Assembly: GCA_903970305.1 (NCBI GenBank)
Contig: CAJCID010000005.1
Span: 1 to 32,288 of the forward strand
Direction: 5' to 3'
Source of the DNA: Rhodospirillales bacterium
GTDB lineage: Bacteria; Pseudomonadota; Gammaproteobacteria; Burkholderiales; Burkholderiaceae_D
Length of the DNA stretch: 32,288 nt
Shown here: piece by piece, positions 7,210 to 26,292 of the stretch
Layout of the letters: every line of letters starts with the position of its first letter
How positions within the stretch are numbered: the first letter of the stretch is position 1
Notes under the pieces: generated by a model
Databases searched by the model: none
The model's input: only the letters and a program-made list of their open reading frames with translations
Told to the model about the DNA's origin: nothing
Translations under genes and position numbers: made by a program

Positions 7210-8406
7210 CTACACCCGCTCGAAAATGCCCGCCGCACCCATGCCGGTACCCACGCACATCGTGACCATGCCATAGCGCAGGTCGCGGCGCCGTAACGCA
7301 TGCACGACCGTGGCCGAACGGATCGCCCCGGTCGCGCCCAGCGGATGTCCTAGCGCGATCGCGCCGCCGATTGGATTGACCCGCTGCGGATCGAGCTCAA
7401 GATCACGCATCACCGCGAGAGACTGGGCGGCGAAGGCTTCGTTCAGTTCGATCCAGTCGATCTGATTCAAGCTCAGCCCGGCCGATTTCAGGGCAGCGGG
7501 GATGGCTTCCTTCGGTCCGATACCCATGATCTCCGGTGGCACGCCGCGCACGGCAAACGAGACGAAGCGGGCCAGAGGCGTCAGTCCAAATCTCTTCACG
7601 ATGTCTTCCGAGGCGAGGATCAGCGCTCCGGCACCGTCCGAGGTCTGCGAACTGTTACCCGCGGTCACGCTCCCCTTGGCGGCGAAGACTGGCCGTAGCT
7701 GGGCCAGGGCCTCAAGACTGCTGTCCGAGCGCGCACCCTCGTCTTGCGCGACCCATCGTCGCTTCTCGCTGACCTCCCCACTCGTCAGATCCGCACTTCG
7801 CTCCACGATTTCGATTGGCGTCGTCTCCGCGACGAACTCCCCGGCAAGCTGGCCCGCGATCGCCTTCTGGTGCGAGGCCCAGGCGAAGCGATCCTGATCT
7901 TCGCGCGATACCTTCCACTGTTCTGCGACCTTCTCAGCGGTCAAACCCATGCCATAGGCCATGCCGATATTCTCATCGGCGACGGCGATCGGATTGATGG
8001 ACGGCCAATGCCCCATCATCGGCACGAGACTCATCGATTCGGTCCCTGCGGCGATCATGCACTGGGCCTCGCCCGTGCGGATGCGGTCAGCCGCCATGGC
8101 CACGGCCGTCAGGCCGCTCGCGCAGTAGCGATTCACCGTGGCACCGCCCACACTCTTGGGAAGGCCTGCGAGCAGGACCGCCATCCTGGCGACGTTCAGG
8201 CCCTGCTCGGCCTCGGGAAAGGAACAGCCCACAATCGCATCCTCGATCACTCGCGGATCCAGACCGGGAACCTGACCGAGCGCCGCCTGCAGAACGCGCA
8301 CCAACAGGTCATCGGGGCGGGTGTTACGAAACATGCCGCGCGGCGCCTTGCCGATCGGAGTGCGTGTCGCCGCGACGATGTAGGCTTCCTGGAGTTGTTT
8401 ACTCAT
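7210..8406 (-). CDS. fadA: Acetyl-CoA acyltransferase (3-ketoacyl-CoA thiolase)
   Basis: Thiolase of 398 residues catalysing the last step of beta-oxidation: 3-ketoacyl-CoA plus CoA gives acetyl-CoA and a shortened acyl-CoA. The acyl-accepting Cys95 lies in VNRYCASGL, the His in [11 protein letters not shown], and the second active-site Cys in [11 protein letters not shown] near the C-terminus. Length is normal for the family. The ATG start has a near-perfect AAGGAG 7 bases upstream. It starts 11 bases after the end of the FadN-type gene, so the two are co-transcribed, and the partner gene supplies its substrate. Confidence 0.92.
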
Positions 8407-10844: not shown

Positions 10845-12635
10845 TCAGAACAGTTCGGCCGGCAGGGCCAAAAGGTTAGCCGAGCCGGAACGCGCTTGCC
10901 GAATCAGCATGGCCGTCTCGGGGTAGAGGCGCGCGAAATAAAAGCGCGCCGTGGCGAGCTTGCTCGTGTAGAAGCCGTCCCCAGAATCCGCCTTGGCCAG
11001 GGCCAGCTTGGCCATGCGTGCGAAAAGATAGGAATAGACCAGGTGTCCGATGACGCGCAGATACGGAACTGCCGCAGCACCCGCCTCGTCCTGGTTCTGG
11101 AACGCCTTCATGCCGATCTCCATCGTCAGTTTCGTCACCTTCTCGCCAAGCTCGGCAAGCGGATTGACGAATTCCTGGAGCGCTTCGGTGGTTCCATTCT
11201 CCTCGACAAACTGCTGCACCAAAGCGCCGAATCTCTTGAGCTTGGCGCCGTTATCGGAGAGCACCTTGCGCCCCAGAAGGTCGAGCGATTGGATGGTGTT
11301 GGTGCCCTCGTAGATCATATTGATGCGCGAATCACGCACAAATTGCTCCATGCCCCACTCGGCGATAAAGCCGTGGCCGCCAAACACCTGCATGGCTTCC
11401 GAAGTGGCCTGCCAGCCGTTGTCGGTGATGAAGGCCTTGACCACCGGCGTTAACAGCGTGACGAGTTCAGCCGCTTCCTTGCGAATCATCTCATCGGGAT
11501 GGTTCAACTCGCGATCGATCTGCAGCGCGACGAAGAACGTGAGGGCCCGGCCACCCTCTGCCCACGCCTTGGCCGTGAGTAGCATGCGGCGCACATCGGG
11601 ATGGACGATGATCGGATCAGCCGGTTTGTCCGGAGCTTTGGGACCTGAGAGGCTGCGGGACTGCAGCCGATCGTTGGCGTAGACGACCGCGTTCTGATAG
11701 GCCACTTCAGTCAAGCCCAAGGACTGCATGCCCACGCCCAGGCGGGCTGCATTCATCATCACGAACATCGCGTTTAGACCCTTGTTGGGCTGGCCCAGGA
11801 GCCATCCTTTGGCACCGTCGAGATTCATTTGCGCGGTGGCGTTGCCGTGGATACCCATCTTGTGCTCGATCGCTCCACAGTAGATCGTGTTGCGCTCCCC
11901 GGGATTGCCCTTCGCGTCGGGGATGAACTTGGGCACGATGAACAGTGAGATCCCCTTGGTGCCGGCCGGCGCGTCGGGCAGACGGGCGAGCACCAGGTGG
12001 ATGATGTTCTCGGTCAGATCATGCTCGCCGCTCGAGATGAAGATCTTGCTCCCGGTGATCCGGAAACTCCCGTCAGGCTGGGGCTCGGCCTTCGAGCGCA
12101 GCAAACCCAGATCGGTGCCGCAATGGGACTCGGTCAGACACATGGTGCCGGTCCATTCCCCCGAGACCAGTTTGGGCAGATAGACGGACTGCTGCTCTGG
12201 CGTGCCATGCGCATGCAGACACTCATAGGCGCCATGGGTGAGTCCGGGATACATCGACCATGCCTGATTGCAGGCGTTGAGCATCTCGTAGAACGCATTG
12301 TTCAAGATGATCGGCAATCCCTGGCCGCCATACTGGGGATCACAAGCCAGCGCCGCCCAGCCGCCCTCGACGAACTTGTCGTAGGCGGCCTTGAATCCCT
12401 TCGGGGTCGTCACCGTGTGAGTGGTGGTGTCAAGATGACAGCCTTCCAGATCGCCGCTCTGGTTCAGCGGGAACACGATCTCCGTGGTGAACCGTGCACC
12501 CTCTTCCAAGACCTGGTCGATCAGTTCGCGATTGGTCTCCGCGTGCGCCGGCATCACCGCCAGTTCGGCCTCGACATCGAGCAATTCGTAAAGGACAAAC
12601 TGCATATCGCGAAGCGGGGCCTTGTAGACAGCCAT
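10845..12635 (-). CDS. Acyl-CoA dehydrogenase with C-terminal extension
   Basis: FAD-dependent acyl-CoA dehydrogenase (596 residues), introducing the 2,3-double bond in acyl-CoA. It belongs to the long type with an extra C-terminal domain that also contains the DmdC (3-methylthiopropionyl-CoA dehydrogenase) group. Visible motifs are MCLTESHCGTDLG (flavin-binding region, residues 165-177), ITGSKIFISSGEHD (193-206), MQVFGGHGFIAEWGMEQ and the catalytic Glu443 in YEGTNTIQ. The start has a strong AAAGGAGG ribosome-binding site. It is the first structural gene after the TetR regulator (37-base gap) and feeds the FadN-type enzyme. General fatty-acid use is likelier than DMSP breakdown, given the neighbours. 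Confidence 0.9.
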   Translation of the reverse strand: MAVYKAPLRDMQFVLYELLDVEAELAVMPAHAETNRELIDQVLEEGARFTTEIVFPLNQSGDLEGCHLDTTTHTVTTPKGFKAAYDKFVEGGWAALACDPQYGGQGLPIILNNAFYEMLNACNQAWSMYPGLTHGAYECLHAHGTPEQQSVYLPKLVSGEWTGTMCLTESHCGTDLGLLRSKAEPQPDGSFRITGSKIFISSGEHDLTENIIHLVLARLPDAPAGTKGISLFIVPKFIPDAKGNPGERNTIYCGAIEHKMGIHGNATAQMNLDGAKGWLLGQPNKGLNAMFVMMNAARLGVGMQSLGLTEVAYQNAVVYANDRLQSRSLSGPKAPDKPADPIIVHPDVRRMLLTAKAWAEGGRALTFFVALQIDRELNHPDEMIRKEAAELVTLLTPVVKAFITDNGWQATSEAMQVFGGHGFIAEWGMEQFVRDSRINMIYEGTNTIQSLDLLGRKVLSDNGAKLKRFGALVQQFVEENGTTEALQEFVNPLAELGEKVTKLTMEIGMKAFQNQDEAGAAAVPYLRVIGHLVYSYLFARMAKLALAKADSGDGFYTSKLATARFYFARLYPETAMLIRQARSGSANLLALPAELF

Positions 12636-12672: not shown

Positions 12673-13281
12673 CTAGGCCGCGTGTGCCAGGGGCGGCACG
12701 GTGTGGTTGGCGATCAGCCGCAGGAAGGCCCGTTCGGTACGCTCGATCGCATCGTGAGCCTGCAGAAACCGGGCGTCGTGGTGTAGGGCGAAGATCAGCG
12801 CCCGGACCTCGTAGATGAGCTGTTCGCAATCCGTGTCAGCGCGTAGGTGCCCCGCCTCCACGGCCTGGCGGGCGGCGCGGGTGAGGGCCATCTTCCAGGC
12901 GGACACCATCTGCAAGAGTTCATCGCGAATCGGGCCCGGACGATCGTCGTACTCGACGGCCCCGCTGATATAGATGCAGCCGCTCGTGATCTCGCGGGAA
13001 TGCCTTGTCACCCAGCGGTGGAACATCGCGCGCAGCCGGGGCAGACCGCGCGGTTCGCGGATGCTGGGATAGAACACCTCTTCCTCGAAGCGGCGATGAT
13101 ATTCCTGGATGACCGCGATCTGGAGGTCTTCGCGTGAGCCGAAATGGGCGAACACGCCGCTCTTACTCATCTGCATGCGATCGGCCAAAAGTCCGATGGT
13201 CAGTCCCTCAAGACCGTCCCGACTTGCCAATTCGAGGGCCGCATCGAGAATGGCCACTCGCGTCTGTTCACCTTTGCGCAT
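12673..13281 (-). CDS. TetR/AcrR family regulator of the beta-oxidation operon
   Basis: Transcriptional regulator of 202 residues. The N-terminal TetR helix-turn-helix covers about residues 9-55 (LTIGLLADRMQMSKSGVFAHFGSREDL, with the typical KSGVFAHFGS recognition helix). The C-terminal ligand-binding half is not assignable to a ligand by eye. It is the first gene of the operon, 37 bases ahead of the acyl-CoA dehydrogenase gene, so it most likely represses its own operon and is released by an acyl-CoA, as do FadR/PsrA-type TetR proteins; that is inference. The ATG at 13281 has only a weak ribosome-binding site. A promoter and inverted repeat lie in the upstream gap. Confidence 0.88.
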   Translation of the reverse strand: MRKGEQTRVAILDAALELASRDGLEGLTIGLLADRMQMSKSGVFAHFGSREDLQIAVIQEYHRRFEEEVFYPSIREPRGLPRLRAMFHRWVTRHSREITSGCIYISGAVEYDDRPGPIRDELLQMVSAWKMALTRAARQAVEAGHLRADTDCEQLIYEVRALIFALHHDARFLQAHDAIERTERAFLRLIANHTVPPLAHAA

Positions 13282-13314: not shown

Positions 13315-13339
13315 ACCGAACGCTCGTACTATTCTCGGT
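13315..13339. promoter_or_regulatory. Candidate operator overlapping the tetR promoter
   Basis: ACCGA (13315-13319) and TCGGT (13335-13339) form a 5-base inverted repeat whose 15-base spacer contains the proposed -10 box. Size and placement suit a TetR-family operator, but five paired bases occur often by chance. Confidence 0.3.
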
Positions 13340-13357
13340 CTGAGGCCCCCTTGTCAA
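13328..13357 (-). promoter_or_regulatory. Sigma-70 promoter of the tetR/beta-oxidation operon
   Basis: On the minus strand a perfect -35 box TTGACA (13352-13357) is followed, after 18 bases, by AATAGT (13328-13333), 4 of 6 to the -10 consensus. It lies 46 bases upstream of the regulator ATG in a 128-base gap after the hslR stop, which is where the operon promoter should be. Confidence 0.55.
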
Positions 13358-13409: not shown

Positions 13410-13808
13410 CTATTCGTCGCCCAGGCGGCTCAACTGGCGCCGGGCGCGCTTGTCGGGGCGGCCCTTCATGCCCAGGGCGGGCTCACGGTAAAGCCGCCTG
13501 CGCTCCTGGGCTTCGGCCCGGGCGATGCGGCTTTCGTCGGTCTCGGCATAGCGGGTCTGGGCGATTCCGGCTGACTCGCGAACTTCCGAGACGAGCCTGA
13601 CGCGCAGGGTCTGGCTTACCCCGTCGAGGTCGATCTTGATGACATCGTCGATCCGGACATCCTTGGCTGGCTTGGCACGTGCGCCGTTGAGCAGCACATG
13701 GCCGGCGCCGATCGCTCGGGCTGCAAGACTGCGGGTCTTGAAGAAGCGGGCTGCCCAAAGCCACTTGTCGAGCCTGACGCGGGCCCCGAAATCCACGACG
13801 GAACTCAT
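13410..13808 (-). CDS. hslR: Heat-shock protein 15 (S4-domain RNA-binding protein)
   Basis: Hsp15 homologue of 132 residues (E. coli Hsp15 has 133). In that family it binds stalled 50S subunits carrying a nascent chain with tRNA and helps recycle them. The S4 domain opens with VRLDKWLWAARFFKTRSLAA at residues 11-30 and continues GHVLLNGARAKPAKDV. The C-terminal tail is basic (GRPDKRARRQL). Its ATG overlaps the pdeM stop by four bases (ATGA, 13805-13808), so translation is probably coupled to pdeM. It is the last gene of the ligase-associated cluster; no functional link with DNA repair is known to me. Confidence 0.9.
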   Translation of the reverse strand: MSSVVDFGARVRLDKWLWAARFFKTRSLAARAIGAGHVLLNGARAKPAKDVRIDDVIKIDLDGVSQTLRVRLVSEVRESAGIAQTRYAETDESRIARAEAQERRRLYREPALGMKGRPDKRARRQLSRLGDE

Positions 13809-14473
13809 CGCCGGAATCCTTCGAGAGGCAGGGCGTGGACGCGCTCGGGACCGGCAAGGTAGATACGCTCACCCCGAGAGGCCCGGATCGTCAGCGCGCC
13901 GGTAAAGGCGCCAAATGCGGGCAGCACCCCGCTGCGGTCGCGAAACCAGAAGCAGGGCAGCCGGGCGGTCTCATTGGCACGGCCCGCAAGCCGGTAGGCT
14001 GGATGCAGATGGCCCGCCAGTACGTACAGCTCTTCATGATCCTGTGGGTGGTGACACAGTGCAAGACGCCCCACAGGCCAAGGTTCCTCCTCGACATCAA
14101 TTCCGAGGGCGGCGGGCAAGTCGCCCCCGGGGTCGTCGTGGTTGCCCCTGACGAGCGTGAGCCCAAGACCCGGATGCCGGCCCCTCCAGGCCGCCAGCTC
14201 GCCACGCGTGGGATCGGTGCTCGCTTCGCGGGCGTGCGCGAAGTCGCCCAGAAACACGACGCGCTTGGGCTTCCAGAGCGCGACCAGACGCGTGAGCCGC
14301 AGAAGATTCTCAGCGGTCGTTGCCTCCGGCACCGGCACGCCCCGCGCCCGAAAACTCGCCGCTTTTCCGAAATGCGCATCAGCCACCAGCAACATCTGTT
14401 GCTCGACCCAGAATACCGCGCGCTCGGGCAGGAGTTCGAGGCTCTGGCCTGAGACCTCCACGGATTGGTGCAT
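13805..14473 (-). CDS. pdeM: Ligase-associated DNA damage response endonuclease PdeM
   Basis: Calcineurin-like metallophosphoesterase (222 residues) of the PdeM family, named from clusters with an ATP-dependent ligase, a DEXH helicase and an MBL-fold exonuclease; all three are found nearby here. Metal-binding motifs appear in order: LLVADAHFGKA (Asp32, His34), FLGDFAHA, VRGNHDD, ALCHHPQ and LAGHLHPAY. The start at ATG 14473 has GAGAGG upstream; an in-frame GTG at 14485 would overlap the stop of the CoA-transferase gene (GTGA) and is an equally possible start. The gene is tightly coupled to hslR downstream. Nuclease activity is taken from the family, not shown here. Confidence 0.88.
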   Translation of the reverse strand: MHQSVEVSGQSLELLPERAVFWVEQQMLLVADAHFGKAASFRARGVPVPEATTAENLLRLTRLVALWKPKRVVFLGDFAHAREASTDPTRGELAAWRGRHPGLGLTLVRGNHDDPGGDLPAALGIDVEEEPWPVGRLALCHHPQDHEELYVLAGHLHPAYRLAGRANETARLPCFWFRDRSGVLPAFGAFTGALTIRASRGERIYLAGPERVHALPLEGFRR

Positions 14474-14481
14474 CGGCCCTC

Positions 14482-16101
14482 TCACTGCCCCGACGACCCG
14501 AGAGGGGGATAGGTGCGGTCCAGTCCCATCGGGCCCTCGCTAAAGAGGCGAGCGTCCATCAGGCACAGGTCAGGCGCAACCGCGATCTCTGTTGCGCACT
14601 GATCCAAAACATCGGTCTTAAGGTCGATGCCCGGCGCGATCTCGATCAAAGTCAGGCGTTTGTCGCGCATGGCAAAGACCGCCCGCTCGGTCACATAGAG
14701 TACCGGCCGCCCCAGACTGGCGACGTAGGGCCCGTTGAAGGTGAGATGGGATACCGATTCGACGATTTTCTTGGAGCGACCCTCCTGGACGATGCGCAGC
14801 CTCCCCGCGCGTGCCTCGACGACGAGACCGCCGGCCGTGAGCGTACCCATGAAGACGATCCTCTTGGCACTTTGGGTAATGTTGATGAAGCCTCCGACAC
14901 CGGCGATGATGGTCCCCGCGCCCTGGCCGAACTTGCTCACGTTGACATTGCCTCGTCTGTCGAGTTCGGCCAGTCCAAGAAATGCCATGTCAATGCCGCC
15001 TCCCTCGTAGAAATCGAACTGGGCAGGCTGATCGATGATGGCCTCCGGAAAGGCGCTCGCCCCGAAGGAGAGGCCCTCGGCGGGCACACCACCGATCGGA
15101 CCGGCTTCGACGGTCAGCGTGAACCCTCCGATTCCCTCCTCGTGAGCCACCACGCCGACGTTGGCGGGCATGCCCACCCCCAGGTTCACCACACGAGGCC
15201 TATGGCGACCGAGTTCGAGCGCCGCGCGTCTTTGCACGATCTTGCGTGCACTCAAGGGCTCGGCGGGGATCTGGAGCGTCTGCCGGCCATTACCTGCCAC
15301 CAGATAAGCCGGATTAAAGGCCTCGCCAAAGGTCATCGCATGGTCGCCAGCGTGCTCGCAGACCACGACGAGATCGACCAGGATGCCAGGAATCTTGACG
15401 GCGTGAAGATTGGCGTGGCGCTCCACGAGTCGCTTGACCTGCACGATGACGACTCCTCCCGAATTGCGGGTCGCCTGCGCGAGCGCGAGCAGCTCATGAT
15501 GAAAGGGCTCCTCTTCGGTGGCGATATTGCCCTGTCCATCGGACGTCGTACCCCGCAACAGAGCAACATCGATGGGGAAGGAGGGGTAGAACAGCTGCTC
15601 TTCGCCCTCGAACTCGACGTGCTTGACCCACACATTGTGGCGATTGGGAACGCGCAGGTGCGCAAAGTGCGCGTCGTTCAGGCGGGCTGCACCATAGCGC
15701 GGATCCACAAAAGTGTTCAGACCGATGCGCGTCAAAAGGCCGGGGCGTCCGGCGGCGATGGCCCGGTAGAGGTGGGTGATGACCCCTTGCGGGAGGTTGT
15801 AGGCTTCGGCCTCGCCGGCCAGCGCCAGGGCCGCAAGCTTCGGGGCCGAGCGCCAGTGGCCGCCCACGATGCGACGAGTCAGTCCGACGTGGCCGAAATG
15901 GTTGACGCCACGGCTCGCACGGTCTCCCTGACCGGCCGAAAACACGAGCGTCAGGTCCAAAGGTGATCCGGTCTCGAGAAAGCGCTCCTCGAGGGCGCGC
16001 GTCACCGCCTCGGCGTGCCCGACACCCACAAAACCTGCCGATCCGACAAACGAACCGTCCGCGATCGCATCGACCGCCGCGCGCGCCGAAACCACCCGCA
16101 T
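14482..16101 (-). CDS. Fused acyl-CoA:acetate/3-ketoacid CoA-transferase (YdiF/Pct type)
   Basis: Class I CoA-transferase of 539 residues with the alpha and beta halves fused, as in YdiF and propionate CoA-transferase. The N-terminal half begins with an Ala/Gly-rich turn (VGSAGFVGVGHAE). The second half carries MPANVGVV and the segment TVEAGPIGGVP, in which Glu332 is the expected covalent CoA-binding glutamate. The enzyme moves CoA between short carboxylic acids; the substrate pair is not predictable. The ATG has AGGA 8 bases upstream. It lies between helicase (33-base gap) and pdeM (8-base gap or overlap) on the same strand, so it appears to be in the repair operon although nothing in its chemistry explains this. 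Confidence 0.9.
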   Translation of the reverse strand: MRVVSARAAVDAIADGSFVGSAGFVGVGHAEAVTRALEERFLETGSPLDLTLVFSAGQGDRASRGVNHFGHVGLTRRIVGGHWRSAPKLAALALAGEAEAYNLPQGVITHLYRAIAAGRPGLLTRIGLNTFVDPRYGAARLNDAHFAHLRVPNRHNVWVKHVEFEGEEQLFYPSFPIDVALLRGTTSDGQGNIATEEEPFHHELLALAQATRNSGGVVIVQVKRLVERHANLHAVKIPGILVDLVVVCEHAGDHAMTFGEAFNPAYLVAGNGRQTLQIPAEPLSARKIVQRRAALELGRHRPRVVNLGVGMPANVGVVAHEEGIGGFTLTVEAGPIGGVPAEGLSFGASAFPEAIIDQPAQFDFYEGGGIDMAFLGLAELDRRGNVNVSKFGQGAGTIIAGVGGFINITQSAKRIVFMGTLTAGGLVVEARAGRLRIVQEGRSKKIVESVSHLTFNGPYVASLGRPVLYVTERAVFAMRDKRLTLIEIAPGIDLKTDVLDQCATEIAVAPDLCLMDARLFSEGPMGLDRTYPPLGSSGQ

Positions 16102-16134
16102 GTCAGCTTTCCTGTGCCTGTCTGAGCGTACATT

Positions 16135-18633
16135 CTAACGTCCCGGCACGAGCGGTCCTGAAGGACCGGGACCCGCCGCCTTCTCGAGTTGGGCCAGCAT
16201 GCGGGCAATCCGGTCCGACAGCTTTTCGGTTGAAACCGTCTCGCGCAGGCGCTCGACGAGAAGCGGAAATGCAAAGGGACTGGCGCGCTCGAGTTCACGA
16301 AAGGCGATCTGGCGCCGGCCAAGGTCAGTGAGCGTTTTCTCGAGCCGCCCCATCTCGAGTTCCTGCTCGAGGACCTCGCTTTGGGCCTGGCGGAGCAGGA
16401 GATTGTCAGCGTCGTGCTTGCGAAATACCTCGAAGAACAAGCTCGAAGATGCCTGGAGCTGCTTCATCGACTTCGGTGCTCCGGGAAAACCTTGAAAGAC
16501 GAGCCCGGCGATGCGCGCGATCTCGCGAAAACGCCGCTGCGACAGTTCAGCCGCGTTCAGGCTCGCCAGTGTCTCCTCCAAGAGATGTTCGCAGGACAAC
16601 AAACTCTTGTCGCGCAGTCCGGACCAATCGACGGGCACGGGGGAGAGCAATTCGAAGCCGTAATCGTTCACCGACACGGAGAAAGTAACCGGAGCGGTCT
16701 GGCCCACCCGCCAGGCCAGGAGCGCAGCCAAGCCGATATGGACCGCTCGGCCCGCATAGGGATAGACAAACAGGTGATGGCCCTCCCTGGAAACCAGAGA
16801 TTCGACGAGAAGCTGATCGGGCGTGGGCAGCTCCGACCAGCGCATCTGAATCGCCAGCAACGGGGCGAGCGCAGTCATTTCCGGCCCTTCGAGGATCCCC
16901 AACCGCGCCTGTTCGAGCCGACCGAGAACGGCTGCGGCCAGTTCAGAGGACAGGGGCATCTTGCCGCCGTTCCAGCGCGGCACCGCGGGTTTTCGCCCCG
17001 CTCCCTTGCGCACGTAGGCGGTCATGTCGTGCACCCTGACCAGTTCCAGGAGTCGGCCGCCAAACAAGAAATGGTCACCCCTGCGCAGTCGCGCAATGAA
17101 CGATTCCTCAACCGTGCCAATAGTGCCGCCACCCAGATACTTCACCTGGATCGACGCATCCGCGACGATCGTGCCGATTGAGAGCCGATGGCGTTTGGCG
17201 ACTTGCGCGTCAGGCACGCGATAGACCCCATCGTCGTCTCTGAGCACGCGCCGGTACTGCGGATAGGCCGTGAGCGAACTGCCACCCCGACCGACAAAGT
17301 CGAGCGCCCATTGCCACTGGCTTGCTTGCAGATCGCGGTAGGACCAGGTGCTGCGTATCTCACTGAAGAGCGCGTCCTCGCGGAATCCGCCTCCGAGAGC
17401 GATCGTGACCAGATGCTGCACCAGGACGTCGAGGCAATTGATCGGAGGTACGCGGGTCTCAATCCGAGCCCCTTGTGCGGCATCCCGTGCCGCGGCGGCC
17501 TCCACCAGTTCGAGGGCGTTGGTCGGGACCAGCGTGACCCGCGAGGCCAGACCCGGAGCATGCCCCGATCGTCCGGCGCGCTGCAACAGCCGCGCCACCC
17601 CCTTGGCCGAGCCGATTTGCAGGACACGCTCGACGGGCAGGAAGTCCACCCCAAGGTCCAGACTGGATGTGCACACGACCGCTTTCAAGCGCCCGTCCTT
17701 CAGATTGTTTTCGACCCAGGCGCGAACGCCCTTGTCCAGAGATCCATGGTGCAAGGCGATGACGCCCGCCCAGTCGGGCCGGGCATCAAGGATGCTTTGG
17801 TACCAGATCTCGGCCTGCGAGCGGGTGTTCAGAAACACCAGGCTCGTTCGCGAGCGCTCGAGCTCGGCGAGAACAGGTCCGAGCATGCGCAACCCAAGGT
17901 GGCCGCCCCAGGGAAAGCGCTCCATCGTCTCGGGCAGGAGCGTATCGATGATGAGGCGCCTGTCCAATGCACCCTGGATCAAGCGCCCTTGGCCGTTGGG
18001 CAGGAGCGCTGCCTGGGCGACGTCGAGGTCGCCCAGGGTGGCTGACAGACCCCATACAATCAGGCCCGGATTCCACGCCCGCAGGCGGGCCAGGGCAAGT
18101 TGGACCTGAACGCCACGCTTGTTGCCCAACAGTTCATGCCATTCGTCGACCACGATCATCTGGGTTGTGCCCAGGACAGAGCGGGCGTCGGGACGACTCA
18201 TGAGTAAGGATAGGCTTTCCGGCGTTGTGATGAGGGCGCTGGGCAGGCGGGCGGACTGACGGGCCCGTTCCGCCGAGCCCGTATCGCCTGAGCGCACACC
18301 GATCGTCCAAGGCAGACCCAGACCCTCCAAGGCCTCGGCGAGGGCACGCGCCGAGTCGGCTGCCAAGGCGCGCATGGGAGTGATCCATATAACAGTCAGT
18401 GGCGGCGCACTCCTGAGCATCCCCGGTTCGGCAAAACGGGCGAGCGCCCCAAGCCAGACTGCGTAGGTCTTTCCCGAGCCCGTTGTGGCATGCAGGAGCC
18501 CGGATTCACCCTCGGAAATTGCCTGCCAGACCTGGTGCTGAAAGGGAAACGGGCTCATGCCGTTTTGCCCGAGCCAATCCCGCACGCGCTGCAGCCGCTC
18601 GGGGTACCCTTCTGGCCCCATCATTGCTGCCAT
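16135..18633 (-). CDS. Ligase-associated DEXH-box helicase (Lhr-like)
   Basis: Superfamily 2 helicase of 832 residues, of the ligase-associated Lhr-like group. Motif I is ATTGSGKT (residues 49-56), motif Ia [14 protein letters not shown], motif II DEWH (163-166), motif [11 protein letters not shown], and the second RecA domain shows [15 protein letters not shown] and [12 protein letters not shown]. The remaining 400 residues are the Lhr core and ligase-associated C-terminal part. It starts at ATG 18633, overlapping the end of the ligase gene by 13 bases, so the two are translationally coupled. In this family helicase and ligase are thought to act together in DNA repair; the exact lesion is unknown. 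Confidence 0.93.
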
Positions 18634-20312
18634 GTGTCGTCCGCTCGAGCCTGGGTGCTGGCCAGCAGCGCCACCAGACTGGCGAGGGTGTCGGCCTCTT
18701 CGATCCCCTTGTCCAGACGCCAGCGCAACATGCGCGGGAAGCGCACCGCGATTCCCGACTTATGGCGCGGCGACGCGGCTATTCCTTCAAAACCCAGTTC
18801 GAAGACGAGGCTTGGCGTGACGCTGCGCACGGGACCGAACTTTTCGACCGTCGTCTTGCGCACGATCGCATCGACCTGCTTCATCTCCTCGTCGGTCAGC
18901 CCCGAGTAAGCCTTCGCGAAGGGTACAAGACTACGCCCTGGCTCGCCTGCGGGCTTATCCCAGACGGCAAAGGTAAAGTCCGTGTAGAGGGAGGCACGCC
19001 GGCCGTGCCCTCTTTGGGCGTAGAGGAGCACTGCATCGACGCAAAACGGCTCGACCTTCCATTTCCACCACAGCCCACTTTCCTTGGTGCGTCCCACGCC
19101 ATAACGCGAGGACCGTTGCTTGAGCATGAAGCCTTCGACGTGGCGCTCGCGGGAACGCTCGCGCAGGCTCTGGAGCTCCTGCCAGGACACTCCTTCTACC
19201 TCGGGCGACAGGCGCAGGGCCGGATGGGCCACTTGTGCTACCAGTTGCTCGAGGCGCGCACGGCGCGCGCTCAAAGGTTCGTCCCGGCAGTCTTGGTAGC
19301 CCCATTCAAGGACATCGTAGGCGATGAATGCGGCCGGCGCCTCCCGCAGCACTTTGGCCGTCACGTTCTTGCGGCCGATGCGTTGCTGCAAGAGCGCGAA
19401 CGATCCTGGCCGGTTCTCCTGCCAGACCACGATCTCGCCATCGAGCACGCATCCTTCGGGTAGACCAGCGCCGATGGCGATCAATTCCGGAAAGCGCTCA
19501 TTGACCAGTTCCTCACCCCTGGACCAGAGCCAGCTTGCGTTCGCGCGCTTGACGAACTGACCGCGGATGCCATCGTACTTCCACTCGACGAGCCAGTCCG
19601 TGACGGCCCCGAGAACCTCCTCCATCGCCGGCCCCGCCACAGGCAGGGCGTGGGCGAGGAAGAACGGGTAGGGCTGACCGGCCCGTCCTTCTGACGCGTC
19701 GACTGCGTCGGAACCGGGGCTTTCTGTGTCGATCAGGCGCAGGAAGGACTGTGCGCTCGGCGCCTGTCGGGCGTCGGTGTAGCCCATGAGCCGCTGGGCC
19801 ACCCGTTTCGGATCGATGCCGGCTGTCTCAGCGAGCGCCCGGGTAACCAGCAATTTTGAGACACCAACCCGAAATCCCCCTCCGATGAGCTTGATCAGCA
19901 GGAAACGCTGCGCGCGATCCAGTTCCCGCCAATAACCCGCGAGCGCCTCAAGAGCGGCCTCTGGACTCGCGCCGCGAAGGCCCATAAGGCGCGTCTCGAT
20001 CCAGAAAGCCAGCCCCTCGTCGCTGGCCCGAACGGCAGGCGGTAAGACGAGAGTGATGGTCTCGGCCAAGTCCCCCACCGCCTGATAGCACTCTTCGAAG
20101 AGCCATTCGGGTAGTCCAGACTCCCGCAGTGCGGCGCTGCGCAGCAGCCGGGTGGGGACCGTTTGCCGGGGTCGGCCCCCCGCGAGGAAGTAGACCGCCC
20201 AGGCCGAGTCGCTCGGCGCCGCGGTCGAAAAATAGGCCTTTAGGGCCTCGATCTTCGCATTCGTGGAGGTGCTTGCGTCCAGCTGGGAATACAACTGTGA
20301 AAATGCTCTCAT
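18621..20312 (-). CDS. ATP-dependent DNA ligase (ligase-associated cluster)
   Basis: ATP-dependent DNA ligase of about 563 residues. An N-terminal DNA-binding domain (residues 1-200, beginning [15 protein letters not shown] as in this family) precedes the nucleotidyltransferase domain with motif I EWKYDGIR (Lys245 is the AMP acceptor), motif III-like [17 protein letters not shown], motif IV EGFMLKQ and motif V LWWKWK. An OB-fold follows. The frame is open to a GTG at 20396, but the ATG at 20312 matches the family start. It is the first gene of the cluster, overlapping the helicase gene by 13 bases. A perfect 14-base palindrome lies 12 bases upstream. Confidence 0.93.
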
Positions 20313-20323
20313 ACGATTTGTAA

Positions 20324-20337
20324 TTTTCGCGCGAAAA
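20324..20337. promoter_or_regulatory. Perfect 14-base palindrome upstream of the ligase gene
   Basis: TTTTCGCGCGAAAA reads the same on both strands. It lies 11 bases from the ligase ATG (20312) and 116 bases from the GGDEF-protein ATG (20454), in the gap between these divergent genes. A repressor dimer bound here would block the ligase gene. It is not the LexA box of betaproteobacteria or another site I can name. Confidence 0.45.
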
Positions 20338-20453
20338 CCACACTTCCGCTCAAGAGAGTGCAATCGTCGCTCGCGAGGCGGGGTTTGCCGGTGCACAATC
20401 TACTGTCCGGCCAGTGTATTTGCCCAACGAGATCCACCCGAGCGATCTGGTGT

Positions 20454-21725
20454 ATGGCTAGACGAACACCCCTGCCCCGTACGACCCAAGCGCCCCCAGC
20501 CCGGGTGATCGAGCGCTGGCTGGGCTTTATCGCGCTTGTGGCAGCACTTGTTCTCGCGATCGCCGCCACGCTGGTCCATTACGTCGCGAATCAGTCGATT
20601 CTCGCCGCCCAAAAGGTCGCCCATTCGTTCGAGATCGTGGGCGAACTCGACCAACTCACCGTTGCGCTGGAAGCCGCCGAGGCGGGACAGCGTGGCTTCA
20701 TCCTGATCGGCAAGCCCAGTTATCTCGAGCCCTATCAACTCGCCCGTTTTCGCGCCAACCTGCACCTTGCGGCGTTGCGCCCCCTGACTTACGGTTCGAG
20801 TCGGCAGTATGACGATTTGTTACGTCTGGAGCAGCTTGTCACGCGCCGCTTCGACTATCTTGCGCGCTCCATCGACGTGCGACAAGAATCGGGCGTGGAC
20901 GCCGCGCGGCATATTCTGGAGTCGGATTCGGGCAAGAACACGATCGACCCGATTGAGGCGCTGGTCTCCTCGATGCAGGAAAGGGAACGCGGCTATCTAC
21001 AGGAGAACCTCGGCCAGCAGGGTCGCTCCTCCGACGAGGCTCTGATCGTCATGGTAGCCACCCTGATGCTGCTGACCATCCTGTCCCTGTTTTTCTGGAT
21101 CGTGCTCAAGCGCGAATTCGTCGTGCGCCACCGCCTGGAGGCCGCGATGCTCGAATCGGCCATCAGCGATGAACTCACAGGGGCGATCAACCGCAGTGAG
21201 TTCGAGCGGCTACTCGGCCAGGAATGGGCCTTCCGGATGCGCTACGGCACCCCGCTCTCGATGGTGCTGATCGACCTGGACAATTTTGACGAGATCAGTG
21301 GCACCTGGGGCCTGCACACGGGTGATGCGGTCTTGCGCGATGTGGTGCGACGCATCCGGGGTCGGCTGCGTACGACCGAGCGGCTCGCCCGCTATGGCGG
21401 CAACCAGTTCGCGCTCCTCATCCCCCAGCCACTGGGAGCGGCGATGCAGTTGGGCCGACATCTGGCAGAGTTGGTGTCGGGCAGTGCCTATCCGGTCCGG
21501 CATAGCCAGACCGGACAGAAGGACACACTCGAAGTGAGCGTGTGCATCGGGGTAGCCGATGCCAGCGACGTCGGGGATGAAGCCGAATTGGTCCAGGCCG
21601 CGGGCGATGCACTTTATGCGGCCAAGGGAAGCAAGGCCGTCACCCGCATCGAGGCCTATCACGCCGACCTGCAACGCACGACCCAGGGCCAGCACAGTCA
21701 CCACCACGACTCGCGCGCCGCCTAG
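20454..21725 (+). CDS. Membrane CHASE3-like sensor with degenerate GGDEF domain
   Basis: Inner-membrane protein of 423 residues. A first transmembrane helix (about 22-45) is followed by a periplasmic CHASE3-like helical domain with the typical ALEAAEAGQRGFILIG, a second helix (VATLMLLTILSLFFWIVL) and a C-terminal GGDEF fold. The GGDEF signature reads GGNQF (315-319), so both acidic residues are lost, and the guanine-binding stretch usually reading FKxIND..GH is FDEISGTWGL. Diguanylate cyclase activity is therefore unlikely; it may bind GTP or c-di-GMP, or act by dimerisation. The tail is His-rich (QHSHHH). The ATG at 20454 was chosen as the first residue before the first helix; a GTG at 20358 is also open. 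It lies opposite the surrounding repair genes. Confidence 0.85.
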   Translation: MARRTPLPRTTQAPPARVIERWLGFIALVAALVLAIAATLVHYVANQSILAAQKVAHSFEIVGELDQLTVALEAAEAGQRGFILIGKPSYLEPYQLARFRANLHLAALRPLTYGSSRQYDDLLRLEQLVTRRFDYLARSIDVRQESGVDAARHILESDSGKNTIDPIEALVSSMQERERGYLQENLGQQGRSSDEALIVMVATLMLLTILSLFFWIVLKREFVVRHRLEAAMLESAISDELTGAINRSEFERLLGQEWAFRMRYGTPLSMVLIDLDNFDEISGTWGLHTGDAVLRDVVRRIRGRLRTTERLARYGGNQFALLIPQPLGAAMQLGRHLAELVSGSAYPVRHSQTGQKDTLEVSVCIGVADASDVGDEAELVQAAGDALYAAKGSKAVTRIEAYHADLQRTTQGQHSHHHDSRAA

Positions 21726-22810
21726 CCCACTGACGTCGGTGCGGTTGCTGCGGGCGCCTCGACCACCTCAGCAGCCTCCTCGTCACCAAATTCCGTCTCA
21801 AATGCCTGCGCAGCGAGCCCCGCTTCACGCAGCCAGCGTACCAGGGGCGCGGACTGTCCATGCGTGACGATGACGCGCTGGGCCTGCGACTGCTCGATAG
21901 CCCACAGCAACCCTGGCCAATCCGCGTGATCGGACAAGACGAAACCCCGATCGAGCGCTTGGCGCCGGCGCGCCCCGCGCAGTTGCATCCATCCCGATGC
22001 AAAGCCGTCGCTGTAGCTCCCAAAGCGGCGTAACCACGGCGAACCCTGAGCCGACGGCGGGGCAAGAACCAGGGCCTGCGCCGCCTCGGGCACCTCTCGC
22101 GCGCCGCGTTGCTCTTCGTAGTGCAGCGTGTGCGGCAATATGACCCCAGCTTGCCGGTAGGTCCGGTTTATATTTTCGACCGCACCATGGCAGAGGATCG
22201 GTCCGATCGCCGGATCAAGCCCCGCGAGGATCCGCTGCGCTTTGCCGAAGGAATAGGCAAACAGCACCGACGCCCGTCGGTTCTGCGCATTTCCCGCCCA
22301 CCAGGCATTGATCTCCGCCAGAACCTCGGCTTGCGCCGGCCAACGGTAGATCGGTAAACCGAAGGTTGACTCCGTCACGAACACGTCGCAGAACACGGGC
22401 TCGAAAGCCGCACAGGTCGGGTCAGCCTCGCCGCTCCCCTCGCGAACGCCAGCGGTCTTGTAGTCTCCAGAGACGACCCATACCGAGCCGCCGTGCTCGA
22501 TTCGAACTTGCGCTGAGCCTAGCACGTGCCCTGCGGGATGCAGGGATACCTTGACCCCAGAGTGGGTGATCACTTCTCCATATTCTAAGGCCTGCGCGGA
22601 AACCGGCCCGAGGCGCGCGTGGAGCACACCCACACCAGACCGCGCCGCCAGATAGTGTCCGTGGCCGCCCCGCGCATGATCCGCGTGGGCGTGGGTGATG
22701 ACGGCCCGCTCGACGGCTCGCCAGGGGTCGATGAAAAAATCTCCGGCCGGACAGTACAGGCCCTGCGGCCGCAGGACCACGAGATCAGGATCAGACCGGC
22801 GTGCGGACAT
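21722..22810 (-). CDS. Ligase-associated MBL-fold DNA exonuclease
   Basis: Metallo-beta-lactamase-fold nuclease (362 residues) of the group named ligase-associated DNA damage response exonuclease. The metal-binding motif is ITHAHADHARGGH (about 38-50), followed by LHPAGHVLGSAQVRIEH, VVSGDYK and VLSDHADW, which mark the CPSF/SNM1-like beta-CASP nucleases. The ATG at 22810 gives the family N-terminus MSARRSDPDLVVLRPQGLYCP after a short lead; the frame is open to 22915 but that part belongs to the upstream gene. It overlaps the EEP gene by 20 bases. It normally adjoins the ligase gene; here a plus-strand GGDEF gene separates them, and the two stop codons overlap in CTAG (21722-21725). Confidence 0.9.
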   Translation of the reverse strand: MSARRSDPDLVVLRPQGLYCPAGDFFIDPWRAVERAVITHAHADHARGGHGHYLAARSGVGVLHARLGPVSAQALEYGEVITHSGVKVSLHPAGHVLGSAQVRIEHGGSVWVVSGDYKTAGVREGSGEADPTCAAFEPVFCDVFVTESTFGLPIYRWPAQAEVLAEINAWWAGNAQNRRASVLFAYSFGKAQRILAGLDPAIGPILCHGAVENINRTYRQAGVILPHTLHYEEQRGAREVPEAAQALVLAPPSAQGSPWLRRFGSYSDGFASGWMQLRGARRRQALDRGFVLSDHADWPGLLWAIEQSQAQRVIVTHGQSAPLVRWLREAGLAAQAFETEFGDEEAAEVVEAPAATAPTSVG

Positions 22811-23717
22811 GGTCCGGTATGCGCAGATCCGCGACGATCGGCGCGTGATCGGAGAGCCGCCGCCAGCCAGGACCGTGGACGACTCTTGCCGCCTCAATTT
22901 CCAGCCCGCGCACATAGATCCTGTCGAGTCGCAGAACCGGAAAGACCGCCGGGAAGGTCCGAGCTGGATGGGGGCTGCGCGTCATCCAGCGCATGCCAAG
23001 AGCACGGCCGGACTCGCCTGCACGGATCTCCTCCTCGCGCCGGGATTCGTCGCCAAAAACCTCCTGTACCCCAAGACCCGCGGCCAGGCGCTCGCCTAGA
23101 CGGTTGCGCCAGTCGTTGAAGTCGCCCGCGATGATGAGGGGCGCGCCATCGGGGACCGTCGCGCGGATACGGGCGATGAGGGCCTCGGCCTGGCGTTTTC
23201 GGCTCTCTTCGAACAGGCCGAAGTGTGCGCATAGGCAATGGACGATCAGACCGTTCACATCGAGTTCGCAGTGCAACAGTCCGCGGCTCTCGAATGCATG
23301 GTCGGAGACGTCGAGGTTTTCGGAAGAGACCAGGGCGAAACGCGACAAGAGCGCGTTGCCATGGTCGGCGTCTGCACGGACGGCATTGCGCCCGTAGACG
23401 ACGTGCTCCCAGACCGAGGCCGCCAGATAGTCGTGTTGCGCGGCCGCAGGCCAATTGCTAAAGCGCCGCGCGTGACGCTCGCTGCGGCCCTGCACTTCTT
23501 GGAGGAAGACGATGTCGGCGTGCAGCGAATGCAATGAGCGCCGGAGATCGTGAATCCGGTTGCGCCGGGACAGTGCTGAGACGCCCTTATGAATGTTGTA
23601 GGTGGCGATGCGCAGCGTGCCCGAAGGCTCCCTGCCAACACCTAACGCGGAGCGTGTGGGGATCGAACGCGCGTGGGCAATTCGAGTATCGCTTGGGAGT
23701 TGCTCGGGGAAAAGCAT
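22791..23717 (-). CDS. Endonuclease/exonuclease/phosphatase family hydrolase
   Basis: Metal-dependent phosphoesterase of about 308 residues. EEP motifs appear in order: ATYNIHKG (about 38-45), FLQEVQG, CAHFGL, GDFNDWR and the terminal LSDHAPI. In betaproteobacteria this protein usually stands next to a cardiolipin synthase and nudB; here it follows nudB but is followed by the ligase-associated exonuclease, with no synthase gene visible. The start is uncertain. ATG 23717 (GAGG 10 bases upstream) lies inside nudB, overlapping it by 76 bases, and earlier ATG or GTG codons lie deeper in nudB. No standard start codon is available between the nudB stop and the first motif. Substrate unknown. Confidence 0.82.
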   Translation of the reverse strand: MLFPEQLPSDTRIAHARSIPTRSALGVGREPSGTLRIATYNIHKGVSALSRRNRIHDLRRSLHSLHADIVFLQEVQGRSERHARRFSNWPAAAQHDYLAASVWEHVVYGRNAVRADADHGNALLSRFALVSSENLDVSDHAFESRGLLHCELDVNGLIVHCLCAHFGLFEESRKRQAEALIARIRATVPDGAPLIIAGDFNDWRNRLGERLAAGLGVQEVFGDESRREEEIRAGESGRALGMRWMTRSPHPARTFPAVFPVLRLDRIYVRGLEIEAARVVHGPGWRRLSDHAPIVADLRIPDHVRTPV

Positions 23718-24100
23718 CGTTGGGCCGCCTCGCGGAAATTCAGCCATGTGTAACTCAGGTGTTCGCGCGCCGCAAGTGTTACCGCAAGCCGAGCAGGTAA
23801 CTCCAGCCCGAACCACTGCTCCCGATTGCGCGTGACGCCCGGAGCATAGCGCTTGCGCCAGTATGGGTAGATGTCATATTCGATCGAATGGTTCCAGTCG
23901 GTTAAGGTGCCAAGGGCCGAATCGATTCCTGTTTCTTCGAGAACTTCACGATGCGCCGTCGTCGAGAGCGCCTCCTCGGGTGAGTCCTTACTGCCCGTGA
24001 CAGATTGCCAGAAGCCTGCTCGATCGGCCCTCTCAAGGAGGAGCACGTCAAGATCATGGGTATGGATCACCACCAGGACCGACTCGGGAATCTTGTACAT
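23642..24100 (-). CDS. nudB: Dihydroneopterin triphosphate diphosphatase
   Basis: Nudix hydrolase of 152 residues (E. coli NudB has 150) that removes pyrophosphate from dihydroneopterin triphosphate in folate synthesis. Typical NudB segments are PESVLVVIHTHDLDVLLLERAD, FWQSVTGS, the Nudix helix REVLEETGID (51-60) and RYAPGVTRNREQWF. The spacing between the Nudix Gly and the REV helix seems one residue longer than the standard pattern. The start is ATG 24100, with GGA 9 bases upstream; an upstream extension is open but unlike the family. It follows aspS after a terminator, so it may have its own promoter in the 73-base stretch between. Confidence 0.9.
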   Translation of the reverse strand: MYKIPESVLVVIHTHDLDVLLLERADRAGFWQSVTGSKDSPEEALSTTAHREVLEETGIDSALGTLTDWNHSIEYDIYPYWRKRYAPGVTRNREQWFGLELPARLAVTLAAREHLSYTWLNFREAAQRCFSPSNSQAILELPTRVRSPHAPR

Positions 24101-24173
24101 GGGCGGTTTCCGACAAAGTGTAACCTTCCCGAGTGTACCGGTAATGCCCCGCTTGAGTCGGCCACTACCCCGG

Positions 24174-24232
24174 CAAACAAAGACCGGCTGGCGCACGGCG
24201 ACCTGTCTCAGCAGGCGGCCGTGCGCCCGGTC
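24174..24232 (-). terminator. Intrinsic terminator after aspS
   Basis: On the minus strand a hairpin starts right at the aspS stop codon. It has a 5-base stem (24228-24232 with 24182-24186) and a perfect 10-base stem (24218-24227 with 24190-24199), plus CCTG/CAGG inside the loop. It is followed directly by TTTGTTTG. GC-rich stem plus U-tract is the textbook arrangement. Confidence 0.7.
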
Positions 24233-26028
24233 TAGTGGGCGGGCTTGGGTTCGACGCTACGCAGCCGGATGTGCAGTTCACGCAGTTGCCGCTCGTCGAC
24301 CGGACTTGGCGCCTGGGTCAGTAGATCCTGTGCCCTTTGCGTCTTCGGGAAAGCAATGACGTCCCGGATCGATTCAGCCCCGGTCATCATCGTGACAATC
24401 CGGTCCAGGCCGAAGGCAATGCCGCCATGGGGCGGCGCGCCGTACTGCAGCGCATCAAGCAGGAAACCGAACTTCAGTCGCGCCTCCTCTGCATCGATCT
24501 TCAGTGCACGGAAGACCTTGCTCTGCACTTCTTCGCGGTGAATCCGGACCGAACCGCCACCGATCTCCCAACCGTTTAGGACCAAATCGTAGGCCTTGGC
24601 AACGCAGCGGGAGGGATCCGTCTCCAGCCAGTCCTCGTGTCCGTCCTTTGGACTCGTGAATGGATGGTGCGCGGCCACGAACCGCTGGTCCTCCTCGTCA
24701 TACTCAAACATCGGAAAGTCGATCACCCACAGGGGCTTCCAGCCCACTTCGAAGAGCCCCGTGCGCTTACCGAATTCGGAGTGGCCGATTTTCACGCGAA
24801 GTGCACCGATCGCGTCGTTGACCACCTTGGCCTTGTCCGCACCAAAGAAAATCAGATCCCCTGCCGCCGCGCCCGTGCGCTCGATCAGGTCTGCGATGGC
24901 GCGGTCGTGCAGGTTCTTGACGATCGGGGACTGCAGGCCCTCACGGCCTCGCGTCGGATCATTCACCTTGATGTAGGCGAGGCCCTTGGCTCCGTAGATG
25001 CTCACAAACTGAGTATAGGTATCGATTTCAGAACGCGACATTTCCGCACCTTGGGGCACGCGCAAACCGACCACCCTCCCACCGCTCATCTTGGCGGCGC
25101 TCGCGAACACCTTGAACTCGACGTCTCCCATCACATCGGTCAGGTCGGTGAACTGCAAAGCGACCCGCAGATCGGGCTTGTCCGAGCCATAGCGGGCCAT
25201 CGCCTCCGAATAGGTCATGACAGGAAAATTCGGCAGCTCAAGTGCCATGACCTTGTGAAACACATGTCGGATCATGGTCTCAAAGATCGCGCGGATCTGG
25301 ACCTCATCTAAGAACGACGTTTCACAATCGATCTGCGTGAATTCCGGCTGACGGTCCGCGCGCAGATCCTCGTCGCGAAAGCACTTGGTGATCTGGTAGT
25401 AGCGGTCGAAGCCGGCCACCATCAGCAACTGCTTGAACAGTTGCGGCGATTGCGGCAGCGCGAAAAACATCCCTGGGTTGACCCGCGAGGGGACGAGGTA
25501 ATCGCGCGCGCCTTCCGGAGTCGACTTGGTCAGCATCGGGGTTTCGATATCGATGAAACCGTGCTCATCGAGGTATTTGCGCACCTCGATGGCGACCCGA
25601 TAGCGCAGCATCAGGTTCTGCTGCATCTGGGGGCGACGCAGATCCAAGACGCGATGGGTCAGACGCGTGGTCTCCGAGAGGTTGTCGTCATCGAGTTGAA
25701 AAGGAGGAGTGACCGAGGGATTGAGGATCTCAATTTCGTGGCACAGCACTTCGATCTCACCACTGCGAATGGACTCGTTCACTGTGCCCGCTGGACGGCG
25801 CCGCACGAGGCCTGCGATGCGCACGCAGAACTCGTTACGCAGCTTTTCGGCGATGGCGAACATGTGCGCGCGGTCTGGATCGCAGACGACTTGGACAAGA
25901 CCTTCGCGATCGCGCAGGTCGATGAAAATCACCCCGCCATGGTCGCGACGGCGGTGGACCCAACCGCACAACTGCACGGTCAGATCGAGTTCCTGGACGG
26001 TCACCAGACCGCAATAGTGGGTACGCAT
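24232..26028 (-). CDS. aspS: Aspartyl-tRNA synthetase, probably non-discriminating
   Basis: Class II bacterial AspRS of 598 residues. The N-terminal anticodon-binding domain contains [23 protein letters not shown] without a break (21-43, given here in parts: [12 protein letters not shown], then [11 protein letters not shown]). Motif 2 is [18 protein letters not shown] and motif 3 [13 protein letters not shown]. The large bacterial insertion domain lies between. His30, in RRRDHGG, corresponds to the residue that in non-discriminating AspRS relaxes anticodon recognition, so the enzyme may also charge tRNA-Asn for GatCAB to amidate. ATG 26028 has GAGGAG 5 bases upstream and fits the family start. 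A 264-base leader with two hairpins precedes it. Confidence 0.95.
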
Positions 26029-26292
26029 TGCTACTCCTCGCTGGGGTTTCGGGTCGTCACCCCGCACCGGGCGGCGGGGTGGGCGCGCGGATTTTCGGCG
26101 CTGGAATGACGAGAAGGGTTGGGCAGGTGCCTGCTGACCAACCCTATCGATTTCGGGTCAGCGGGCCGCCCGTGCCGGCTGTGCGACGCACGCAGGCTAA
26201 ATCGGAGCCCGCGCTGCGGCGCGTACTCAATTGGGGGAGATGGGAGATGGGCGACATCATGCATTGAAGGTAGCACGCGCTGCGCGTGACGG
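26029..26292. other. aspS 5' region with inverted repeats
   Basis: The 264 bases between the DUF502 stop and the aspS start hold no gene. Two clear inverted repeats are present: CACCCCGC/GCGGGGTG (26058-26065 with 26074-26081, 8-base loop), only 29 bases from the aspS ATG, and a longer one at 26115-26145. A smaller one, CACGC/GCGTG, lies at 26274-26288. No convincing promoter was found by eye, though aspS presumably has one here. Confidence 0.6.
26115..26145 (-). terminator. Candidate terminator of fmdB-DUF502, or aspS leader hairpin
   Basis: AGGGTTGG (26115-26122) pairs with CCAACCCT (26138-26145), and GCAG/CTGC pair inside. On the minus strand it is followed by TCTCGTCATT, which is only moderately U-rich. 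It stands 148 bases behind the DUF502 stop and 87 bases ahead of aspS, so either termination or a role in the aspS leader is possible. Confidence 0.4.

Follow-up and report, generated by a model that had tools for sequence, protein, structure and literature searches.

Why should genes for a CoA-transferase, an Hsp15-like protein (hslR) and a GGDEF-domain diguanylate cyclase lie among those of a DNA repair set? The question is raised by a stretch of 32,288 nucleotides of contig CAJCID010000005.1, hereafter the window, in which they are interleaved with the four ligase-associated repair genes, encoding an ATP-dependent DNA ligase, a helicase, the nuclease PdeM and an exonuclease of the metallo-beta-lactamase (MBL) fold. 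In the known repair set the helicase unwinds, PdeM and the exonuclease trim, and the ligase seals. The arrangement is real, its genes are correctly read, and it was seen in no genome outside a small clade of the window's family. Our comparisons make it highly probable that in this clade a known repair set came to lie inside an older block of housekeeping and fatty-acid genes running from aspS to a thiolase gene.

The older block has the order aspS-nudB-EEP (endonuclease/exonuclease/phosphatase fold)-(cls)-(CoA-transferase)-hslR-tetR-acad (acyl-CoA dehydrogenase)-fadB-thiolase, and it occurs without the repair genes. Ralstonia-type records (L086 and others) have aspS-nudB-EEP-cls-CoA-transferase-tetR-acad-fadB-thiolase, with an enoyl-CoA hydratase gene further along, and neither the repair genes nor hslR were found in this run. 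In the family panel (145 genomes) hslR gave one match per genome. Its surroundings were surveyed in 42 genomes of the family, the window included and G166 left out for having no hslR: in 35 of them (32 of 38 genera) acad lies no more than 5 kb downstream in the same orientation, and 32 of these 35 have a detected tetR between the two; cls stands up to 4 kb upstream of hslR in 26 of the 42, and hslR adjoins pdeM in five genomes. The block of G166 itself (locus L072) reads aspS-nudB-EEP-GGDEF (opposite strand)-pgl/zwf/eda/edd-CoA-transferase-tetR-acad-fadB and holds no repair genes; in this draft genome (94% complete) we found no pdeM, no hslR and no helicase match better than 3.6e-4. The slot taken by the ligase and helicase genes in the window is filled there by the Entner-Doudoroff genes for 6-phosphogluconolactonase, zwf, eda and edd (L072:5030-9826). 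The record (CAJCHO010000064.1) is titled Mycobacteriaceae, yet it has the genes and synteny of the window's family and is probably mislabelled or misbinned.

Because the CoA-transferase gene and hslR are found in the block without repair genes, they belong to the site, with the repair set apparently a guest. The same holds, probably, for the GGDEF gene, which also stands in the repair-free G166. The genes that flank the repair genes in the window are those of the block of the family and of Ralstonia, in the same order and orientation, and what sets the window apart is the insertion of the repair genes and of the GGDEF gene. This block is described from the present analysis, and no publication on it was sought by name. 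The original prediction, made from the letters of the window, had a CoA-transferase and an hslR tail breaking up the repair set. That history seems to be reversed, since both genes occur in the repair-free older block (the CoA-transferase gene in Ralstonia and G166, hslR in most family genomes examined), where the repair set is the likely newcomer.

How far does the arrangement extend? The order of the window recurs in G150, the only other member of its genus in the sample, where one locus (L071) has the entire order from aspS to the enoyl-CoA hydratase gene, and in G180, from a second genus, with extra genes. It is thus not peculiar to a single genome, the outcome against which the original prediction had been staked, and it was seen nowhere else. 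In G180 a HAD hydrolase gene and an opposite-strand lipocalin gene are inserted at the ligase/helicase junction, and the CoA-transferase gene and pdeM, close together in the window's genome (G000) and in G150, are separated by 578 bp with an open reading frame (ORF) of about 190 amino acids that has no Pfam match. In these three genomes and in G166 no cls was found. For the CoA-transferase 375 named relatives were found, and window proteins were mapped within flanks of up to 10 kb around the best 80 (showing only the best match of each gene above 50 bits). L071 alone has hslR or a gene of the four repair families, and EEP was present at 12 of these 80 loci (Ralstonia-type records, L071 and L072).

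The helicase gene and pdeM normally adjoin, in line with what had been claimed of the whole set. Among the 53 of 145 family genomes that carry pdeM, each has the helicase gene on the same contig and strand, and the gap between the two matches is at most 107 bp in 48 (three split helicase matches, in G154, G056 and G176, being represented by the piece nearest pdeM). It is 1515-2278 bp in the other five (G000, G150, G180, G157 and G195), with 1679 bp in the window, where the repair genes do not form one unbroken run. The intervening gene differs: a CoA-transferase in G000, G150 and G180, a DRL-type oxidoreductase in G157, a PMT_2 membrane protein in G195. Both the CoA-transferase (E up to 1e-40) and pdeM are present in 24 of the 145 genomes and are linked in three, all of this clade; and in a sample of 150 genomes of the taxonomic order no genome besides the window's own had a helicase gene over the cut-off linked to a CoA-transferase gene. 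A phylum sample of 398 genomes contained pdeM in 129, and 90 loci were examined, 30 of them with only about 1.5 kb of flank. The helicase was detected in 75 of the 90, within 300 bp in 62 of these, and neither a CoA-transferase gene nor hslR lay beside pdeM in any of the 90, where divergent CoA-transferases could be missed and hslR was additionally tested with a hidden Markov model of 41 sequences plus the window's. Seven helicase-pdeM gaps in this sample exceed 690 bp; five hold a Pfam-matched protein (two aspartyl proteases, an alpha-amylase, a DUF1016 protein and a methyltransferase) and for the other two no protein was named. Among the papers listed in searches of the open-access PMC literature, none describes the gene order of the window.

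Profile searches found all four ligase-associated repair families in the window, each above its curated cut-off, and the list of genes first proposed for it (exonuclease, GGDEF, ligase, helicase, CoA-transferase, pdeM, hslR) agrees with the family matches (Table 1). The family match of the exonuclease begins at residue 45 of a long ORF, and its ATG at 22810 is the coordinate given in the original prediction; the matches of the ligase begin at residues 29-30 of its long ORF, and the ATG at 20312 was checked. The CoA-transferase aligns with YdiF (PDB 2ahu) over nearly its full length (402.9 bits, residues 3-527) and conserves the E-x-GPIGG stretch, whose Glu we take to be catalytic. It does not reach the Staphylococcus FadX model NF052271 (323.1 bits, cut-off 750) and is a distant relative of FadX. 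The hslR product resembles Escherichia coli HslR (Hsp15) in its S4 domain and in the RLDKWLW near its start, and differs in scoring 81.2 bits against the Hsp15 model NF007673, whose cut-off is 148; not one of the 145 family genomes searched attains that score. PMC11317155 gives a rule for telling Hsp15 from RqcP: close to the start of Hsp15 an Arg and an Asp are conserved, and either the KRR motif is lacking or the stretch that runs from this Arg to the end exceeds 110 residues. The window protein, read by eye, has RLDKWLWAARFFKTRS near its start and about 120 residues to its end, beyond the RqcP length limit, and so falls on the Hsp15 side of the rule.

Table 1. Features of the window and the matches on which their identification rests (positions counted from the first nucleotide of the window).
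Feature	Position	Strand	Basis
aspS, aspartate-tRNA ligase; first gene of resident block	24232..26067	-	NF001750 879.2 bits, cut-off 443; syntenic in relatives
nudB, dihydroneopterin triphosphate diphosphatase	23642..24196	-	NF006961 216.8 bits, cut-off 103
EEP, resident, start uncertain	22791..23816	-	PF03372; syntenic in relatives
Ligase-associated MBL-fold exonuclease	21722..22810 (ORF opens 22915; likely Met 22810)	-	TIGR04122 468.8 bits, cut-off 325
CHASE3-GGDEF diguanylate cyclase; resident or early arrival	20358..21725 (second ATG 20454)	+	PF05227, PF00990
ATP-dependent DNA ligase, LigB type	18621..20312 (ORF opens 20396; likely Met 20312)	-	TIGR04120 675 bits, cut-off 400
Lhr-core-type DEXH helicase	16135..18633	-	TIGR04121 1107.9 bits, cut-off 850; WH_Lhr and DEAD_assoc domains
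TAGAAT element, putative -10 box of CoA-transferase gene	16132..16137	-	36 nt before start codon in window; no good -35 box
YdiF/FadX-like single-chain CoA-transferase, resident of fatty-acid block	14482..16101	-	PF01144; PDB 2ahu; synteny
pdeM (MPE-type nuclease)	13805..14485	-	TIGR04123 224.7 bits, cut-off 150; PDB 6nvp Nuclease MPE E 8.1e-59
hslR, Hsp15-like S4-domain protein, resident	13410..13808	-	PF01479; PDB 5z81 and 1dm9 Hsp15; synteny
tetR promoter/operator	13317..13357	-	TTGACA 13357-13352; AATAGT ending 13328; TACGAGCGTTCG 13328-13317
tetR of fatty-acid block	12673..13281	-	PF00440, PF16925
acad, acyl-CoA dehydrogenase of fatty-acid block	10845..12635	-	PF00441 and others
fadB-like 3-hydroxyacyl-CoA dehydrogenase of fatty-acid block	8418..10796	-	NF052272 580.8 bits, below cut-off 999
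Thiolase (acetyl-CoA C-acyltransferase) of fatty-acid block	7210..8406	-	NF006553 714.3 bits, cut-off 567

A LigB/Lhr-core helicase/MPE (PdeM)/MBL-fold exonuclease repair operon is credited to Ejaz and Shuman 2018 in a passage of PMC10140301, and the Lhr-core group is treated in part of PMC8301817. The window has the four families over cut-off and keeps the order and strand of ligase, helicase and pdeM, but its genes are not contiguous, with an opposite-strand GGDEF gene, an inserted CoA-transferase gene and an hslR that overlaps the end of pdeM. For a CoA-transferase gene within a fatty-acid block there is a parallel in the fadXDEBA operon of Staphylococcus, as outlined in a portion of PMC12369327; for the fadB product of the window, too, the best-scoring model is that of Staphylococcus FadB, with a score under the cut-off.

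The spacing that suggested an operon is largely as had been noted. Ligase and helicase genes overlap by 13 nt; the CoA-transferase gene does lie closely between helicase gene and pdeM, after a 33-bp gap (16102-16134, which includes position 16110, where the junction had been placed) and with either a 4-nt overlap (GTGA) from a GTG start of pdeM or an 8-bp gap from an ATG 12 nt further, a start that is permissible because the PDB match to MPE begins at residue 6. The ATGA coupling of hslR to pdeM is present at 13805-13808, and the opposite-strand gene that splits the exonuclease from the ligase is that for the CHASE3-GGDEF protein, convergent with the exonuclease gene (4-nt overlap) and divergent from the ligase gene (spacer of 141 bp if the starts are the ATGs at 20312 and 20454). 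On the 5' side of the exonuclease gene, aspS, nudB and EEP are about equally tight (a 35-bp gap or overlaps), and hence the tight run starts at aspS (26067) and not at the exonuclease gene. In G150 the open frame seemed continuous from helicase to CoA-transferase; a fusion was rejected, as a TAA terminates the helicase.

This run looks like several predicted transcription units rather than one. The CoA-transferase gene is preceded by TAGAAT in four of four clade genomes, 36 nt (G000), 38 nt (G150), 45 nt (G180) and 68 nt (G166) before its start, and of 35 further genes in the same regions none carries it in the 110 nt before its start (it occurs in 0.4-1.3% of random 110-nt stretches), which suggests a putative promoter of its own. 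Downstream, tetR has a predicted promoter, TTGACA-18-AATAGT, that overlaps the operator TACGANCGTTCG (in the window TTGACA..AATAGTACGANCGTTCG) and sets an end to the run after hslR. Of 21 upstream regions, 14 have the exact operator and four a version with up to two mismatches; it was not found in the three from Ralstonia. Control of the CoA-transferase gene by the TetR of the block was considered and found unsupported: exact TACGANCGTTCG occurs once in the window, upstream of tetR, and with up to two mismatches there are nine matches against 9.65 expected. Terminators were uninformative (six found, 8.9 expected in shuffles). At four other CoA-transferase loci (L073, L075, L099 and L104, from Cupriavidus, Simplicispira and Acidovorax) palindromic GAACATTTGTTC / GAACAAATGTTC lies about 40-85 bp upstream of the gene, which suggests a different regulator there.

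On these grounds we would picture the repair genes as having landed among resident genes, with the intercalation a by-product of the landing site, and the CoA-transferase and Hsp15 as not recruited into repair. A first predicted unit would comprise aspS-nudB-EEP and the exonuclease gene, for which a transcript shared with the ligase gene is unlikely, given its place 3' of these genes and the convergent GGDEF gene before the ligase gene. A second, ligase-helicase, would start in the spacer divergent to the GGDEF gene. A third, CoA-transferase-pdeM-hslR, would start from a promoter of the TAGAAT type where the helicase gene ends, read-through from ligase-helicase being possible, and a fourth would run from tetR onward under its own promoter. 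The repair proteins would keep the roles they have in the known set. The CoA-transferase would serve acyl-CoA metabolism, and the Hsp15-like protein would act on 50S subunits that have stalled, the role given for Hsp15 in PMC11317155.

Several observations weigh against this picture or against parts of it. hslR has no acad after it in seven of the 42 genomes, namely G157, G195, G152 (contig ends), G174, G183, G188 and G268, and in G157 and G195 the repair set is present with no acad near hslR. A tree of eight block proteins unites G000, G150, G180, G166, G179, G157 and G195 (100/98) without settling their inner order. G166 was grouped with the window's genus (support 75/81), and a clade of repair-bearers only was not rejected (approximately unbiased (AU) test, 0.186 and 0.23), and G166 may thus have lost the set or never had it; 9 of 48 genomes had been dropped from one tree on its position. 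As for the promoter, TAGAAT was chosen post hoc, lacks any recognisable -35 box and went unreported in a promoter scan; in a 255-kb genome sample it lies 12-70 nt upstream of 3 of 143 crude genes (0.3 expected), the CoA-transferase gene being one of the three. Outside the clade it precedes the CoA-transferase gene at none of 18 loci (four with a non-start codon at the assumed start), and on this evidence it need not be older than the repair set. In the trees of the repair proteins, built from a chosen part of the genomes with short fragments dropped, the helicase of G157 and G195 stands apart from that of the window, and a common clade is rejected (AU 0.0004). Lastly, the spacing between pdeM and hslR is tight (between about -8 and +13 nt, depending on the start codon taken, and relying on TTG starts in G180, G157 and G195) in five of five clade genomes from three genera, even without the CoA-transferase gene.

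The helicase tree bears on how the set arrived. A single entry of all the repair genes as one unit is not supported by it: the helicase of G157 and G195 is not grouped with that of the window, and the set therefore did not simply enter once as a whole. In the ligase and pdeM trees all five genomes fall together with modest support (77 and 89) and with long branches in play. The repair set may be a mosaic whose genes were assembled or exchanged one at a time. The helicases in the same slot of G157 and G195 (L159:9567-12119 and L161:9445-12018) group with another family of the order (support 85-87), and an exchange of the gene in place is possible there.

The alternative that survives best, though we hold it to be unlikely, is that pdeM and hslR alone form a functional pair, a nuclease and a ribosome-rescue protein translated together, with the CoA-transferase gene as a bystander. 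Their tight spacing, kept while the gene before pdeM changes, is the sole surviving hint of a real link, a modest one, and with five cases of five, selection for co-expression may play a part there; G166, which lacks pdeM, likewise lacks an hslR match. That genome is, however, a 94% complete draft, the pair does not recur in the 90 phylum loci, and hslR occupies the site in relatives without repair genes, so that landing beside it and compact packing would suffice. One may speculate, with very little confidence, that pdeM and the Hsp15 gene, present in single copy, are translationally coupled in this clade and would tune ribosome rescue with Lhr/PdeM repair, for instance where damage stalls transcription-coupled ribosomes or leaves behind RNA:DNA hybrids, and that the promoter of the CoA-transferase gene would link both to the use of fatty acids.

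It is highly unlikely that the whole run is a true operon that expresses CoA-transferase and Hsp15 together with the repair genes, as originally predicted, and puts both to work in DNA repair. What stands of that prediction is that codirectional genes spaced from a 13-nt overlap to a 33-bp gap, in an order shared with G150 and G180, make some co-transcription plausible. But the spacing loosens in G180, TAGAAT precedes the CoA-transferase gene, the linkage is limited to three of the 24 family genomes with both CoA-transferase and pdeM, and neither of the two genes adjoins pdeM in the phylum loci, short flanks included. One operon for repair, CoA-transferase and Hsp15 is not the best reading, and co-expression of the CoA-transferase with repair is unlikely. 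Finally, an assembly artefact or chimeric contig, conceivable as the genome is a draft of 329 contigs, has a negligible chance, given that the order is repeated in G150 and G180, at 46-94% protein identity and on contigs of separate assemblies.

Overall, the case of a repair cassette in an older block shows that closely spaced genes with overlapping start and stop codons can look like an operon where comparative genomics points to a cassette packed among resident genes. The clade offers a natural test bed, because relatives with the same backbone have or lack the repair genes and the gene between helicase and pdeM varies. If the coupling of pdeM and hslR were functional, it would provide a concrete lead on the lesion handled by the repair set. 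As for the odd neighbours of the repair genes, they look like long-standing residents of this site, not new partners in repair.

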